In this document: positions 12,659 through 25,238 of the stretch, one piece after another
How the letters are laid out: every line of letters begins with the position of its first letter
Numbering within the stretch: the stretch's first letter is position 1
Source: a virus
Reading direction: 5' to 3' (one strand)
IMG/VR virus record: IMGVR_UViG_3300021963_000553
Location: 1-26,948 of that record
Length of the DNA stretch: 26,948 nt
Notes under the pieces: generated by a model
Databases searched by the model: none
What the model was told of the DNA's origin: nothing
The model's input: only the letters and a program-made list of their open reading frames with translations
Translations under genes and position numbers: made by a program

Positions 12659-12686
12659 TTGCAACACTCGGCAACACGGGATACGT
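12659..12686 (+). promoter_or_regulatory. Possible promoter before the recombination genes
   Basis: TTGCAA (12659-12664) and TACGTT (12682-12687) are separated by 17 bases and lie in the only gap between virion and recombination genes. The match to sigma-70 elements is modest (four of six and three of six). The position, at the change of gene function, is the main support. Confidence 0.3.
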
Positions 12687-12697
12687 TCTGTCCCGTG
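12675..12697. promoter_or_regulatory. Inverted repeat at the excisionase-like gene start
   Basis: CACGGGA and TCCCGTG form a perfect 7-bp inverted repeat around a 9-base centre. The right arm ends exactly on the GTG start codon of the HTH gene, and the left arm overlaps the possible -10 region. It could be an operator bound by the HTH protein itself, or an RNA hairpin hiding the start. Confidence 0.45.
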
Positions 12698-12868
12698 AGC
12701 GTAAAACTACTCTCTATCAAGGAGATCGCACAGACGCTCGGGACTCATCCCGAGACCGTGCGTCGCTGGATCAGGGATGGTCGGCTTCCAGCCATGAAGG
12801 CAACGAAGCGCACGATCCGTGTTCGCTCCGACGTCATCGAGCAACTACTCCGAAACAACAACAAATGA
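12695..12868 (+). CDS. Excisionase/MerR-like HTH DNA-binding protein
   Basis: This 57-residue protein is almost entirely one helix-turn-helix of the excisionase (Xis/MerR-like) type: SIKEIAQTLGTHPETVRRWIRDGRLPAMK (about residues 7-35), followed by a wing-like basic strand (RTIRVRSDVIEQLL). The start is GTG at 12695; a TTG farther up would add residues that do not belong to the fold. Its stop overlaps the RecT-like gene by ATGA, so it heads the recombination operon. In phages such proteins act as excisionases or small transcription regulators. No integrase is seen here, so the regulator role seems as likely. Confidence 0.65.
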   Translation: MSVKLLSIKEIAQTLGTHPETVRRWIRDGRLPAMKATKRTIRVRSDVIEQLLRNNNK

Positions 12869-20861: not shown

Positions 20862-22718
20862 ATGACAACGCTCCTCGAACGAGCGGCGCTTTGGCTCGCC
20901 AAGGTACCGCCAGCCATCTCCGGATCCGGAGGGCACTCGCAAACCTACACCGCCGCCGTTGGCCTAGTCCACGGCTTCGGCCTTTCAGACACCGACGCAT
21001 TCGCGCTCCTGTCCGATTGGAACCGCTCATGCCAACCTCCATGGCAGGACCGCGAACTCCTCCACAAGATCCGACAGGCCAATGAGAAGTCCCACTCCAA
21101 GCCCCGCGGCCACCTCGCCAATTCCTCAAGCACCGTGTCCATTGAGCCATTGGACCTGACACGGGTCCGATTCAGCAGGCCAAAGCCCGTGGAGGCTACG
21201 CAGAAGGCCGAGGTGTCTACGGAGCCCTCCGCGCCATCAAACCCGCCCGCAGCCCCCATCCCGGCCTCGCACGATGCCTCGGAGTTCAAGCGGTTCCTCA
21301 CATCCGCCTTCGCGCCCACCGAGGTGGTCTGCATCTGCGAGCAGGTCGAGGACGGTACCCCCATGACCAGCGGATCCTTCCTGCCCGTCGAGGATTGGAT
21401 CGCCCGCTTCGATGACCCCGAGTCCATCCTCTTCCGACCCGATCGGAATCAGGGCGTCTTCGTCCGCATCAACCCGTTCAAGCCCAACCTCTACAGCGGC
21501 TCCGACAACGATGTCATGGCCTACCGCCATGTCCTGGTGGAGTTCGATCAGAAGCCCAAGGCCGAGCAGGAACAGCTCCTCCGCTCATCGGGCCTGCCCA
21601 TCAGCGTCCTCATCGACTCCGGTGGCAAATCCATCCACGCATGGGTCCGGGTCGATGCACCCAATCGCAAGGAATGGGACGCCCGCAGGGATGCCATCTA
21701 CGCGGCCATCCCCGATGTCGATCCCAAGAACAAGAACCCATCGCGCTTCTCCCGGCTCCCGGGCGCATGGCGGGGCGAAGAGAAGCAGAAGCTGTTGGCC
21801 AGCAACCTGGGCGCTCGCTCGTGGGAAGAATGGCTCACCGATCGGGAGACCGATGATGACAAGGCCACCGTCGTCACGGTCAAAGACCTCATCAACTTCG
21901 ATCCCGACAAAGATCCGGACAACCTCATCGGCAAACGGTGGCTTACCCGCGGATCCTCCATGATCATCTCCGGTGGCACCGGCATCGGAAAGTCATCCCT
22001 CATGATGCAGATCGTCATCCAGTGGGCCATGGGCAGAGACTTCTTCGGTGTTGCACCAGTGCGACCACTCCGCATCGGTATCGTGCAAGCAGAGAACGAC
22101 AAGGGCGACCTCGCAGAAGCCTTCAGGGGCGTCATCAAGGGGCTCAATATGCCCACTTCCGATATCTACACCCTCCAGGAGAACCTCCACTTCAGGACCG
22201 AGGCCGTCCGCACCGGTGACGCGTTCCTCGCCTACGCCCGCCGGTTCATCACCAGATCGAAGCTCGATGTCATCATCGGTGACCCGCTCTTCTCCTACTT
22301 CGGTGGCGATCTGTCGGACCAAGGCGAGGTCAGCGTGTTCCTACGGAACAAGCTCCAGCCCATCCTCCACCAGACCAAGGTCGCTTGGATCTGGATGCAC
22401 CACATCTCCAAAACCCAGCGCAAGGACGGCGAACCCATGACCACCATGGAGCTCGCCCACTCCGGGTTCGGATCCAGCGAACTCGCCAACTGGGCGCGAG
22501 AGATCGCCGTGTTGGTAGAAGTAGGCCAGTCGAAGCCCCGTCGGTTCCAACTGGCCTTCTGTAAGCGGGGATCAAGGCTGCCGTCTAATACCCTCAACCT
22601 TCAGCATTCTCCCAGTGAGATCGTATGGGAGCAGTGGAACCCGATGGTGATGACAGGGGCTCAACTGAAGGAACCGAGTGGTAGGAAGGGAGCTTATCCC
22701 AAAAGGCGGGGTCCTTAG
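20862..22718 (+). CDS. Fused AEP-type primase and RecA-like replicative helicase
   Basis: This 618-residue protein has three parts. Residues 1-85 are a small helical domain of the primase C-terminal type (WNRSCQPPWQDRELLHKIRQA). Residues about 165-310 look like an archaeo-eukaryotic primase core: VLVEFDQ (Glu227, Asp229), GGKSIHAWV (His259) and NPSRFSRLPG (Arg295, Arg298). Residues about 350-590 are a RecA-like ATPase of the RepA/AAA_25 kind, with Walker A GGTGIGKS (371-378), Walker B LDVIIGD (468-474) and WMHHISK. It likely primes and unwinds at the origin. The leader is CAACGCAACGAC without a Shine-Dalgarno sequence. Its last 125 bases overlap the opposing gene tail to tail. Confidence 0.8.
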   Translation: MTTLLERAALWLAKVPPAISGSGGHSQTYTAAVGLVHGFGLSDTDAFALLSDWNRSCQPPWQDRELLHKIRQANEKSHSKPRGHLANSSSTVSIEPLDLTRVRFSRPKPVEATQKAEVSTEPSAPSNPPAAPIPASHDASEFKRFLTSAFAPTEVVCICEQVEDGTPMTSGSFLPVEDWIARFDDPESILFRPDRNQGVFVRINPFKPNLYSGSDNDVMAYRHVLVEFDQKPKAEQEQLLRSSGLPISVLIDSGGKSIHAWVRVDAPNRKEWDARRDAIYAAIPDVDPKNKNPSRFSRLPGAWRGEEKQKLLASNLGARSWEEWLTDRETDDDKATVVTVKDLINFDPDKDPDNLIGKRWLTRGSSMIISGGTGIGKSSLMMQIVIQWAMGRDFFGVAPVRPLRIGIVQAENDKGDLAEAFRGVIKGLNMPTSDIYTLQENLHFRTEAVRTGDAFLAYARRFITRSKLDVIIGDPLFSYFGGDLSDQGEVSVFLRNKLQPILHQTKVAWIWMHHISKTQRKDGEPMTTMELAHSGFGSSELANWAREIAVLVEVGQSKPRRFQLAFCKRGSRLPSNTLNLQHSPSEIVWEQWNPMVMTGAQLKEPSGRKGAYPKRRGP

Positions 22719-23232
22719 TCGCTTCCTGCAATTTGCGGAAGTTCTCTTCCTTTGCCCTCTCCACCAGCTCCTCAGGATCCACATCCGGGGAGCTTTTCTC
22801 TTCCTGAGCCTCAGCGTCTGAGTCGGCCACATCTCTGGAACCCTTCCGCCGACGCAACGTCCCGATCATCTGCCGCAGCTTACGGTCCTCAGACCTCAGC
22901 GAGGATATATCACGCTTCATCTCAGTGATCATTGCCAATAGCATTGATACCTTATCAACTTCCTCGGCAGGAACCCAATCACAACCACGCCACTGGCGAT
23001 GGATTCGATCATATATCAATACGCCGCTCTTTATGTTACGCATCGAATTGAACGAGCGGATCGCCTTACCGAGATCGCATCGGAGGTTGTCCATTATGTA
23101 GGCCAGAACCTCGGATCGGCTCGGGTCGATGTCGTGCCTCATCGGCGGCATCAGGCGGAACATGGCGCGGAGGGTGGAACCATTCTCTAGATAACTCATG
23201 GTAGAACCAACGTAGCTTCCATCAGGACGCAT
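22594..23232 (-). CDS. Putative DNA-binding coiled-coil protein, opposite strand
   Basis: This 212-residue protein runs against the replication genes. Residues about 10-85 (GSTLRAMFRLMPPMRHDIDP, RSEVLAYIMDNLRCDLGKAI, VLIYDRIHRQWRGCDWV) look like a compact helical domain with a strand-turn, winged-helix-like. A coiled coil follows (about 87-118, basic at its end), then an acidic linker and a helical tail. The start has no Shine-Dalgarno sequence; an ATG ten codons inside is an alternative. A good promoter with two palindromic sites lies upstream, so autoregulation is plausible. No named family recognised. Confidence 0.55.
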   Translation of the reverse strand: MRPDGSYVGSTMSYLENGSTLRAMFRLMPPMRHDIDPSRSEVLAYIMDNLRCDLGKAIRSFNSMRNIKSGVLIYDRIHRQWRGCDWVPAEEVDKVSMLLAMITEMKRDISSLRSEDRKLRQMIGTLRRRKGSRDVADSDAEAQEEKSSPDVDPEELVERAKEENFRKLQEATKDPAFWDKLPSYHSVPSVEPLSSPSGSTAPIRSHWENAEG

Positions 23233-23293
23233 GTCAAGGAAGCAGAAATAAACCCTAATCGTGGCACCAGAATCTTATCCACCCCCCCCGCTA

Positions 23294-23335
23294 TCTCCCC
23301 TAAAAGGGAGTCTTAATACTCCCTTAAAAGGGAGT
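23294..23335. repeat. Two 18-bp palindromic operator-like sites
   Basis: Site A (23318-23335) is ACTCCCTTAAAAGGGAGT, with perfect 8-bp arms around AA. Site B (23294-23311) matches it at 16 of 18 positions. Their centres are 24 bp apart. Site A fills the spacer of the minus-strand promoter and site B covers its start point, the classical arrangement for a dimeric repressor. Confidence 0.7.
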
Positions 23336-23338
23336 CAA
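23310..23338 (-). promoter_or_regulatory. Promoter for the 22594-23232 gene
   Basis: On the minus strand TTGACT (23338-23333) and TAAGAC (23315-23310) are 17 bases apart, giving a start near 23303 and a leader of about 70 bases. The -35 box matches the sigma-70 consensus at five of six positions; the -10 is weaker. Two palindromes cover the spacer and the start site. Confidence 0.5.
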
Positions 23339-23401
23339 AAATAGCATCGCCGAGACGCTGCGGGGGCGTTTTAAGACGCCCCGCGCTCGGCGGCAATTTT
23401 T
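23337..23401. terminator. Bidirectional intrinsic terminator
   Basis: An outer stem CGCCGAG/CTCGGCG (23348-23354 and 23386-23392) encloses a second stem GCGGGGGCGT/ACGCCCCGC with a one-base bulge. T5 follows at 23397-23401 on the plus strand, and A5 (23337-23341) gives a T5 on the minus strand. It would insulate the repeat region from both sides. Confidence 0.7.
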
Positions 23402-23892
23402 GAGAACCCCCGATTCCGGATTGCGAAACTTGGAAGCAGTGGATCCCGAGGGTAGGAGGTAGGGGTATCGGAGCACTGAAACCGGAATGGTTGGTCCGAT
23501 GGATGGATATGGATGCCTCGCAATCGAGCGGAAAGGGGTCGCCAGTGCGTCGGAGGGGTTCTTCCGCATCAAATTGCGAAAGCGGGGTCTGCGGGGCTGG
23601 AAATCGAAGGGCCGAAACCGCTCCATTCTGCCGCTCCATTCAACCCATGGATGGTTGGCCCACTCGATCCCGCTCCACGATGAGGTATCGGGGCATTAGC
23701 ATTTCTAATTTCCGAATTCCGAATTCCGTATGGCTTATGGAAGATTGGGGAATAGTGATAAATCGGGGGGGGGGCGGACGCGGGAGCTTGTGACATACGG
23801 TGGCGGGCGCTTGTGTTAAATCGGAGCCGTTGGACATTGGGTGTCCTAGGGGGGCTGGCGATCGGCAAGGAAGGAAGGGAGCGGATCCGGGC
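23402..23892. other. Repeat-rich region without a convincing gene
   Basis: Short reading frames exist but none has a ribosome site, protein-like composition or a recognised motif. The region holds several short direct repeats: GGTATCGGAGCA at 23464, repeated with one change at 23684; ATGGTTGGTCC at 23487, repeated with one change at 23651; CCGCTCCATTC at 23618 and 23631; and a heptamer AATTCCG array at 23707-23728. It also has a G10 run at 23765-23774. Such a mix suits a replication origin or another cis-acting site. Confidence 0.5.
23707..23728. repeat. Tandem AATTCCG heptamers
   Basis: AATTTCCG is followed by two exact AATTCCG copies in the repeat-rich intergenic region. The array is the most AT-rich part of that region. 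Confidence 0.7.
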
Positions 23893-23925
23893 AAAGAAAA
23901 GCCCCTAGGGGGAACCTAGGGGGGC
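23893..23925 (-). terminator. Intrinsic terminator of the minus-strand operon
   Basis: CCCCTAGG (23902-23909) and CCTAGGGG (23915-23922) form an 8-bp stem with loop GGGAA. On the minus strand the stem is followed by TTTTCTTT (plus-strand 23893-23900). It lies 22 bases past the last gene of the operon. Confidence 0.7.
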
Positions 23926-23946
23926 GAGAGGAGAATGGCCTGCTTG

Positions 23947-24039
23947 TCAGCCATTCCCGGCGAGGGCCGATAGGAACATGAGACCGACGAAGAAAGCGCC
24001 GAGGAGGAGGTAGCCAAGGGCACGAAAGAGGTCGGTCAT
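23947..24039 (-). CDS. 30-residue membrane miniprotein
   Basis: The gene starts at ATG 24039, overlapping the previous stop as ATGA, with GAGG seven bases upstream. The product MTDLFRALGYLLLGAF, then FVGLMFLSALAGNG, is one hydrophobic helix after a short charged start. It is the last gene before the terminator. Size, tight coupling and ribosome site argue for a real gene. Function unknown; single-pass membrane peptides of phages often inhibit host functions, but nothing shows that here. Confidence 0.55.
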   Translation of the reverse strand: MTDLFRALGYLLLGAFFVGLMFLSALAGNG

Positions 24040-24230
24040 TCCAAAGCCTCGATTAAAAGCGAAAACTCCCGGAGGGTGTCGCTTGACGTATACTCGGGGC
24101 GAAGGGTGACAACCCTTCCTTCACGGAAGGATATCGTCGCCCCGTTGTTTCGCTTCGCGCCCCATGCATTAAACATACGGGAAAACTCCCGGGCGTGCTC
24201 CTCGAGTAGGAAAGTGTGGGTTGTTTTCAT
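24036..24230 (-). CDS. Small hypothetical protein
   Basis: This 64-residue protein begins MKTTHTFLLEEHAREFSRMF and has a beta hairpin (ATISFREGRVVTLRPEY) and a C-terminal helix. The start is taken at ATG 24230, two bases after the previous stop; a farther TTG would invade that gene. The end overlaps the miniprotein start. No family recognised. Confidence 0.5.
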   Translation of the reverse strand: MKTTHTFLLEEHAREFSRMFNAWGAKRNNGATISFREGRVVTLRPEYTSSDTLREFSLLIEALE

Positions 24231-24232
24231 GA

Positions 24233-24466
24233 TCAGATCATGCCAAGGGCGATCAGAAGTGAAGGGCACCCATGGGAGCAGCGCCCGTCGGGTTCGACAA
24301 TGCAACCCTCAGTGCAGCACGCAGGACTTGTACCCTCGAACATAGCATGGCGGGCGTATTCAAAAGCGCCGTCTTCCGACGGCTCCCAACCCTCGTTTTC
24401 AAGCGCTTCCATGGCGCTGATTCGGTACGGGTTGCGGGTTGCGGTAGGGACTTGTGTGGTTTTCAT
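24233..24466 (-). CDS. Small cysteine-rich protein ending CSHGCPSLLIALG
   Basis: This 77-residue protein has a helical first half and a C-terminal cysteine cluster: Cys50, Cys51, Cys55, Cys63, His65, Cys67 (PACCTEGCIVEPDGRCSHGC), then the hydrophobic end PSLLIALGMI. Such endings are common in small phage and plasmid proteins of unknown role, and the cluster could hold zinc. ATG 24466 follows a structured leader; a TTG at 24526 would add 20 unlikely residues. Confidence 0.6.
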   Translation of the reverse strand: MKTTQVPTATRNPYRISAMEALENEGWEPSEDGAFEYARHAMFEGTSPACCTEGCIVEPDGRCSHGCPSLLIALGMI

Positions 24467-24482
24467 GTTTTGAATGGGCTTC

Positions 24483-24528
24483 AATTGCCCGCACAACCCA
24501 CGGTTACCCATGGGCTGGCCGGGCAATT
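24483..24528 (-). promoter_or_regulatory. Structured leader before the cysteine-rich small gene
   Basis: AATTGCCCG (24483-24491) pairs with CGGGCAATT (24520-24528), a 9-bp outer stem. On the minus-strand RNA an inner 6-bp stem (AGCCCA with UGGGUU, one G-U pair) stacks inside after symmetric 3-base internal loops. The G-U pair would be a mismatch in plus-strand RNA, so the fold fits minus-strand transcripts. It may control translation or cut the message between two genes. Confidence 0.45.
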
Positions 24529-25238
24529 CAAGCGATCAAAGCGGGCATATCAATGAAATGCCGGGCTCCGGTCCCGTGAACGGGAATGTGGATTGAGCGC
24601 TGGCCAGTCCTAGCGCCCGCGCAGGCGAGACACTCCGAACATGGGGTTCCGACCCGATCGGAGGCGCAAAGAGTCTCGATCGAGTGGTGATCGAGGTCTG
24701 GTGTCACACGGAAGGTTGACCAGCCCATGCTGCGGGCAATGAGGAGTTCGGCCGCAGTGTCCACACTGGCCATTAATAGTTGCTTCCAACCCTGCAGACT
24801 AGGCTTGCGCCATTGGTGCGTATAGCCTGTCCACCCAGATGAAGCGCCGGCGATCGCGAGGGCGAGGCTAAGAGGGAGATGCGTGGGGTCGCCATAGGCT
24901 CCGAAGCGGACCCGTCGGCCGGTGAAACACTCGAGAGAGCGCAAGGGAGAGTATCGGCCCGCTTTCCACGCCTTCCAAATCCCTTGGGGGGCTTGGCCAG
25001 GATTTACGTAGCATGATCGGCCTACTCCGAAGCGACCGTTTTCTTCGTGCCCGCGATGCATGCAATTGCCGCAGATTAATCTGTCAAGTCCCGTGCGTAT
25101 CGCTTCGGTAGGGGAAACGGATTTCACTAGGATCCACACTTGGATCATGTCGCCGGTCTTCCGATTGTCGGAAGGGGACTCGAAGCCCGTCGCAATGATC
25201 ACACGATGCTGGTCTTCGTGGATAATGAAACCGTTCAC
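24528..25238 (-). CDS. Cysteine-rich phage protein of unknown function (DUF7227-like)
   Basis: This 236-residue protein starts at GTG 25238 (overlapping the previous TGA; GGAGG six bases upstream). It has two cysteine clusters, ICGNCMHRG...RSCYVN (Cys56, Cys59, Cys76) and LCASDRVGTPCSECLACAG (Cys191, Cys200, Cys203, Cys206). Between them are conserved-looking blocks: FGAYGDPTHLP (112-122), GWTGYTHQW (135-143), LMASVD (155-160) and GWSTFRV (172-178). I recall this block order in phage and plasmid proteins listed as uncharacterised. It is probably metal-binding and soluble. An enzyme is possible, given the several invariant-looking Asp, His and Trp residues, but no catalytic class is established. 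Confidence 0.6.
   Translation of the reverse strand: MNGFIIHEDQHRVIIATGFESPSDNRKTGDMIQVWILVKSVSPTEAIRTGLDRLICGNCMHRGHEENGRFGVGRSCYVNPGQAPQGIWKAWKAGRYSPLRSLECFTGRRVRFGAYGDPTHLPLSLALAIAGASSGWTGYTHQWRKPSLQGWKQLLMASVDTAAELLIARSMGWSTFRVTPDLDHHSIETLCASDRVGTPCSECLACAGARTGQRSIHIPVHGTGARHFIDMPALIA

Follow-up and report, generated by a model that had tools for sequence, protein, structure and literature searches.

A pair of conserved palindromes in uncultivated phages may form part of a hairpin array upstream of the likely promoter of a predicted winged-helix protein gene

A dimeric repressor acting on tandem operators is a textbook layout of phage control regions. A pair of palindromes with this appearance lies in a 26,948-bp virus record, which carries RecT-like, primase-like and small-terminase-like genes and the whole of which was analysed here as "the window". 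An earlier note on this DNA had placed the pair over the spacer and start point of a minus-strand promoter, TTGACT/17/TAAGAC, reading into a gene at 22594-23232, and had proposed the operator region of a self-regulating dimeric repressor. The question raised by this locus is whether the palindromes are operators, and which promoter they serve. In the answer that we favor, and to which we give about an even chance of being correct, the palindromes together make up block H2 of H1-H2, a conserved array of hairpins acting in cis, which would control or insulate the promoter of the downstream gene, here named p201.

In the window, the two copies of the 18-mer CTCCC[C/T]TAAAAGGGAGTC occupy 23295-23312 and 23319-23336, agree at 17 of 18 positions (94%) and start 24 bp apart. 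Their near-identity and spacing are real, and the pair is conserved before the same gene in many uncultivated phages, although only the second copy, in that order, is a full palindrome (arms of 8, with 2 nt between them), the first having mismatches. When up to three mismatches are allowed, the 18-mer has three matches in the window, all at this site, with 0.02 expected and with none of 100 shuffled windows reaching three; the third match overlaps the second copy on the opposite strand. A relaxed 16-mer (at most 1 mismatch) has no further site anywhere in the 26,948-bp record. Extra motif copies across genomes were also rejected: a wider palindrome pattern finds one place in 14 of 17 records and none in the other three, which are those behind L520, L526 and L528. 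Three strings, two from the window and one from a relative, had no match in the literature text that was searched, the range to which this result applies.

Related phages conserve the 18-mer, and its sites lie upstream of relatives of the p201 gene. An exact search of IMG/VR returned 96 stretches; among the 80 of these listed, 54 hold two copies, which are 24 bp apart in 52. The protein predicted in the earlier note had a tblastn match in 226 of 235 loci, part of which match only its primase-overlapping portion. Fourteen of 69 distinct tblastn rows (32-39% identity) have primase coding sequence upstream and were dropped, since they seem to match only the primase-overlapping part of p201; among the 55 distinct upstream regions kept, 54 contain the exact pattern ACTCCC..GGGAG, twice in each case except for L162 and L173, which have it once. 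The main set of upstream regions, which required a match from within the first 3 residues as well as 280 nt of upstream sequence, comprises 384 loci, 116 of them distinct; counts out of 110 refer to regions distinct by their last 200 nt, the window included. Relatives were taken as the best 80 of 210, 318 and 265, and for the primase as the best 80 of 156. The inverted CTCCC/GGGAG arms of both palindromes are kept together in 102 of 110 distinct upstream regions, and the palindromes are delimited as follows.

23319..23334, minus strand: P1, first of the two palindromes, which on this strand supplies the 5' arm of hairpin H2
23295..23310, minus strand: P2, the second palindrome, 3' arm of hairpin H2

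The same relatives point to a different gene start and to a different promoter. They share the sequence ATGAG(T/C)TA.. 33 nt downstream of the ATG first chosen, and only 30 of 110 distinct regions have ATG, GTG or TTG at that earlier position; for these reasons p201 most likely starts at 23199 and has 201 residues, and the start that had given a product of 212 residues was wrong. Upstream of this start codon, TTGAC is found at -38 in 104 of 110 regions and at -39 in 3 more (107 in all); a 17-bp spacer, a hexamer (TACCTT, CATTCT, TACGTT and TATTTA are examples) and 9 nt then lead to the start codon.

22594..23199, minus strand: gene p201 (most likely extent), 201 aa, with a predicted winged helix (about residues 1-75), a predicted coiled coil (80-124) and a variable tail; the last 125 bp of p201 are shared with the primase gene, which runs on the opposite strand
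23209..23237, minus strand: conserved promoter TTGACA - 17 - TACGTT, likely the true promoter of p201, ending 9 nt before the start codon

Since no ribosome-binding site was seen before p201, its mRNA probably has no leader or almost none. With TACGTT (3/6), the conserved promoter has a weak -10, and a consensus scan lists neither it nor the one first proposed. The strings of the latter, TTGACT (23338-23333) and, after 17 nt, TAAGAC (23315-23310), are indeed present on the minus strand, but TAAGAC agrees with TATAAT at 3 of 6 positions, and the site is not conserved: the exact arrangement occurs in 36 of the 102 distinct regions holding both palindromes, and, of the 102, 5 satisfy a sigma-70 test with this spacer. 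A laxer scan (spacers 16-18, 20-nt bins, both strands, within 700 nt, n = 109) gave promoter-like matches for 76 + 10 of 109 regions in the bins where the conserved promoter falls and for 44 in the bin of the earlier site, overlapping P1, with no other bin on either strand exceeding 15; these counts led us to reject any further conserved promoter, whether before H1 or on the opposite strand. The locus illustrates how palindromes, though rightly recognized, may be assigned to the wrong promoter when relatives have not yet been compared. In L527 and L528, a promoter segment, TTGACGCGAGCAGAAGTGAA.., is present twice in tandem upstream of p201, and the hairpins are pushed further upstream behind the duplicated segment.

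P1 and P2 are also complementary to each other, and can be drawn as a single element.

23295..23334, minus strand: H2, the one long hairpin that P1 can form with P2; in the window 7 bp, a 2x2 internal loop, 8 bp and a 6-nt loop

Folding of the window sequence gives -24.1 kcal/mol for this nested form and -18.5 kcal/mol for two separate hairpins, a difference of 5.6 kcal/mol. The 24 distinct palindrome-pair sequences were sorted by their spacers into 10 classes, and one representative of each was folded; the nested fold was the more stable in 10 of 10, by only 0.2 to 1.3 kcal/mol in four of them, and a 3-nt bulge in the 5' arm recurs in 8. Pairs in H2 were counted on anchored blocks, MAFFT alignments having misplaced P2 and RNAalifold on the joint alignment having paired P1 with itself. 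In 6 of the 10 classes, every base of the P2 spacer is complementary to P1, and when P2 spacers were permuted among the classes, with relatedness ignored, 6 of 20000 permutations reached the observed pairing and 18 of 20000 reached the observed energy. L487, folded in a longer stretch, forms two hairpins, and six distant relatives (L520, L521, L523, L524, L526 and L485) have two unlike tandem hairpins in place of the palindrome pair. Comparison of these sequences shows that the H2 block is hairpin-forming throughout, with one nested hairpin favored, or two tandem ones.

This variation bears on the explanation suggested by the textbook layout, namely that the palindromes are two double-stranded DNA operators at which a dimeric repressor, with p201 the likeliest candidate, would shut off its own promoter. 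Tandem palindromes do stand here before a gene whose product is predicted to combine a winged helix and a coiled coil, the arms are conserved in sequence and not in pairing alone, they keep to a fixed distance from the promoter, as would suit sites bound as DNA, and the lax scan finds promoter-like matches over P1. However, the spacing between half-sites varies among the 10 classes from 6 to 8 bp in P1 and from 4 to 6 bp in P2, and reaches 9 to 10, by eye, in the hairpins of L485 and L520, which is ill-suited to a rigid dimer. P1 and P2 show a mutual complementarity that separate operators would not require, or, in the six distant relatives, are replaced by two hairpins that are unlike. The promoter under the palindromes is exact in a minority of regions, and, taking the conserved promoter at 23237-23209 as the one in use, the palindromes neither overlap nor abut it, the conserved -35 beginning 57 bp beyond the palindrome end. 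What survives of the operator layout is the conservation of the palindromes before this gene and the predicted winged-helix, coiled-coil character of its product, and we consider operator function unlikely.

The case for a hairpin array draws further on the sequence that adjoins H2.

23335..23403, minus strand: H1, a long hairpin adjoining H2 without a gap, recognized by pairing and covariation

In alignment A5, which holds 56 of 68 regions, 97.1% of cells in H1 are paired and 166 cells are changed on both sides. The covariation score of 0.519 compares with 0.135 for shuffled alignments, none of 500 of which reached 0.519, and with at most 0.128 for a slid control; cruder measures lie within the shuffles, the pairs with double change being reached by 275 of 500 and further pair types by 88 of 500. 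Since hairpins can arise and be maintained through template switching at inverted repeats (PMC8794818), pairing alone is no proof of selection.

A GC-rich hairpin with conserved pairing, as H1 is, calls to mind bidirectional or tandem intrinsic terminators, and H1 and H2 might serve only to end transcription from both neighbors, with no specific ligand. In the window's clade, A and T tracts at the base of H1 give it, by eye, a terminator-like look in both directions; the H1/H2 stretch folds strongly on both strands, the hairpins adjoin each other, and mismatches in H1 are balanced between G-T and A-C (23 to 22), as for a structure used on both strands. In other clades, however, the tract is missing: by eye, none follows H1 in sequences of the L427, L484, L498 and L520 types, so termination by H1 would be conjectural in the L484/L498 and L520 types. 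A terminator scan lists within H1 only a short minus-strand stem, 23359-23343. Plain terminators also do not account for the recurring arm sequence of H2 or for its nearly fixed distance to the promoter, and a separate terminator-like hairpin, CCCCTAGG..CCTAGGGG with a T-rich tail, is already found after the leftward genes at 23902-23922 on the minus strand. We regard termination as the sole role of the array as improbable.

Alternatively, the array might act as RNA, either in read-through transcripts, for example in the manner of the polymerase-modifying put RNA of phage HK022, or as a small noncoding RNA. The put RNA, as described in PMC9378689, is about 70 nt long, lies downstream of its own promoter and acts in the nascent RNA; like the array, it consists of two adjoining stem-loops in a phage control region, whereas the only well conserved promoter here comes after the array (H1 + H2, 109 nt). 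That pairing persists through double changes would suit an RNA, as would the excess of G-T over A-C mismatches on the gene strand in H2 (16 to 1) and in the less certain hairpin H3 (54 to 19), the counts being made with no strand preference; but the H2 excess reflects few independent changes, and H1 is without strand bias. H3 itself, a third hairpin between H2 and the -35, pairs well in the L484/L498 types; in many window-type sequences its best stems are short and differ in position, and it was rejected as a general feature. The lax scan found no conserved promoter within 700 nt upstream of H1 from which such an RNA could start, and in the window's clade p201 is, by eye, the only plausible gene downstream on that strand. 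A known RNA family was also rejected, since Rfam 15 covariance models gave four matches in window positions 22500-24600, with E values of 0.69 to 4.6, all far below gathering scores. Action as RNA of either kind seems to us very unlikely.

The array H1-H2 keeps a nearly fixed distance from the gene. H2 ends 94-97 nt from the start codon in 89 of 102 regions (95 nt in 75, 96 in 9, 94 in 4 and 97 in 1) and 105 nt from it in the other 13, and two short anchors follow it.

23291..23293, minus strand: a conserved TAG at -94 counted from the start codon, one base beyond the end of H2; 97 of 102 regions have it at exactly this distance from H2, and the other 5 within 4 bases
23267..23276, minus strand: AAGATTCTGG, the window form of the common AACTTTCTGG at -77, a possible upstream regulator site

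The TAG was counted relative to the end of H2; a count by position (94 + 16 of 110) includes chance matches in L484, L527 and L528 and was not used. AACTT is present at -80 to -75 in 77 of 110 regions, with AACTT or AAGTT at -90 to -85 in 12; the window itself has AAGATT in place of AACTT. The six relatives with unlike hairpins still have TAG at -95 and an AACTT-like sequence at -77. In one group the TAG and the AACTT-like sequence shift together by 10 bp, which is close to a helical turn and may reflect a single insertion event. Because the distance of the anchors is nearly fixed and shifts by about one helical turn, we infer that a DNA-bound regulator may act upstream of the -35. At class I activator-dependent promoters, as a rule, sites one helical turn apart lie on the same face of the DNA. 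The arrangement here is similar in its strong -35, its weak -10 and the joint 10-bp shift of its upstream anchors in that group; it differs in that the activator is putative and in that the helical-turn argument rests on a single insertion event.

Under the favored reading, the array would shield the p201 promoter from polymerase coming out of neighboring units, which it would stop or stall, and its fixed end (the TAG at -94 and the AACTT-like sequence at -77) would position a DNA-bound regulator, perhaps an activator, so that regulator and polymerase are correctly aligned around the helix. Foremost among the candidates for this role would be p201 itself. An AlphaFold2 model of its residues 1-125, built from 42 sequences (pLDDT 85.7), has helices at 30-39 and 43-54, strands at 61-64 and 69-72 and a long helix at 80-124; it agrees with the DNA-binding-like domain and coiled coil proposed in the earlier note, these being predicted as a winged helix followed by a coiled coil, and p201 is probably DNA-binding. 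An earlier structure model had a pLDDT of 66.6, and a search with it gave nothing useful. L187 was left out of the protein alignments. Structural matches (VIA Z up to 5.5) are too low to name a family and are mostly to chains that we take to be winged-helix domains; the best Foldseek match had an E value of 0.052, and sequences in the PDB matched weakly (best E 0.026). That the family is unfamiliar was borne out, in that profiles from Pfam (best E 0.062) and PHROGs (best E 0.012, with the 212-residue version as query) assigned p201 to no family. Its relatives were not found in phage records or in a first scan of prokaryote genomes.

The array, the promoter and p201 appear to form one unit, because they stay together in differing genome positions. 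In the window's clade (L004, L017, L065, L133), p201 stands tail to tail with the primase gene, and in the window the ends of the two genes overlap by 125 bp on opposite strands (22594-22718). Within the stretches fetched, no relative of the primase was found in L484, L496, L503, L511, L515, L518, L520, L526 or L528; in the four that were translated (L511, L515, L520 and L528), a recT-like gene comes next on the same strand.

Several observations together lead us to favor the array H1-H2. The pairing of H1 is kept through many double changes, as judged against shuffled and slid controls; the complementarity of P1 and P2 is kept while their spacers change; the pattern occupies one place in most records; the end of H2 is nearly fixed relative to the start codon, with the TAG following at one base; distant relatives keep the TAG and AACTT-like sequences beside unlike hairpins; the module stays together both tail to tail with the primase and before recT-type genes; and, apart from the site over P1, no other promoter-like position recurs in more than 15 of 109 regions. 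Against it stand the weak -10, the U-tract missing in the L484/L498 and L520 types, the displaced hairpins of L527 and L528, the small margins of the nested fold (at most 1.3 kcal/mol) in 4 of 10 classes, the two hairpins of L487, and the fact that the relatives are related to each other. We further propose, tentatively and with considerable doubt, that a self-pairing hairpin block (extruded DNA or RNA), set a constant helical distance before a leaderless promoter, read by the adjacent winged-helix protein and moving with promoter and gene as one module, may constitute a new promoter architecture. If the hairpin block does act as a structure at a fixed distance, this would be an unusual regulatory design, and the locus supplies a definite control region, open to experiment, in a large group of uncultivated phages.

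Two relatives hint at hosts, one in the Planctomycetes and one in the Verrucomicrobia. The only relative of p201 in the genome collection is L550 (CAIYZV010000219.1), a 3,344-bp contig in an uncultured Pirellula bin with two unlike tandem hairpins in the same stretch; it hints at a planctomycete host, although binning may mislead. The recT-like product of L515 shares 35% identity over 59% of its length with the RecT-like protein of Verrucomicrobia phage P8625. In the window, a gene at 12659-12868 (plus strand) directly before recT encodes an HTH_17, excisionase-like product, and a small gene of similar look, by eye, lies between p201 and recT in L515. A repeat-like motif of the window, CATACGGAATTCGGAATTCGGAA (minus strand, 23690-23740), is present whole or in part, at distances of 408 to 2144 nt from the gene, in 45 of 55 relatives, and its region is possibly part of an origin region. 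Further along, the gene at 24528-25238 (minus strand) encodes a phrog_2554 protein (E 2.8e-63) with relatives in 147 phage records, many of them from phages of Mycobacterium, Klebsiella and Gordonia.
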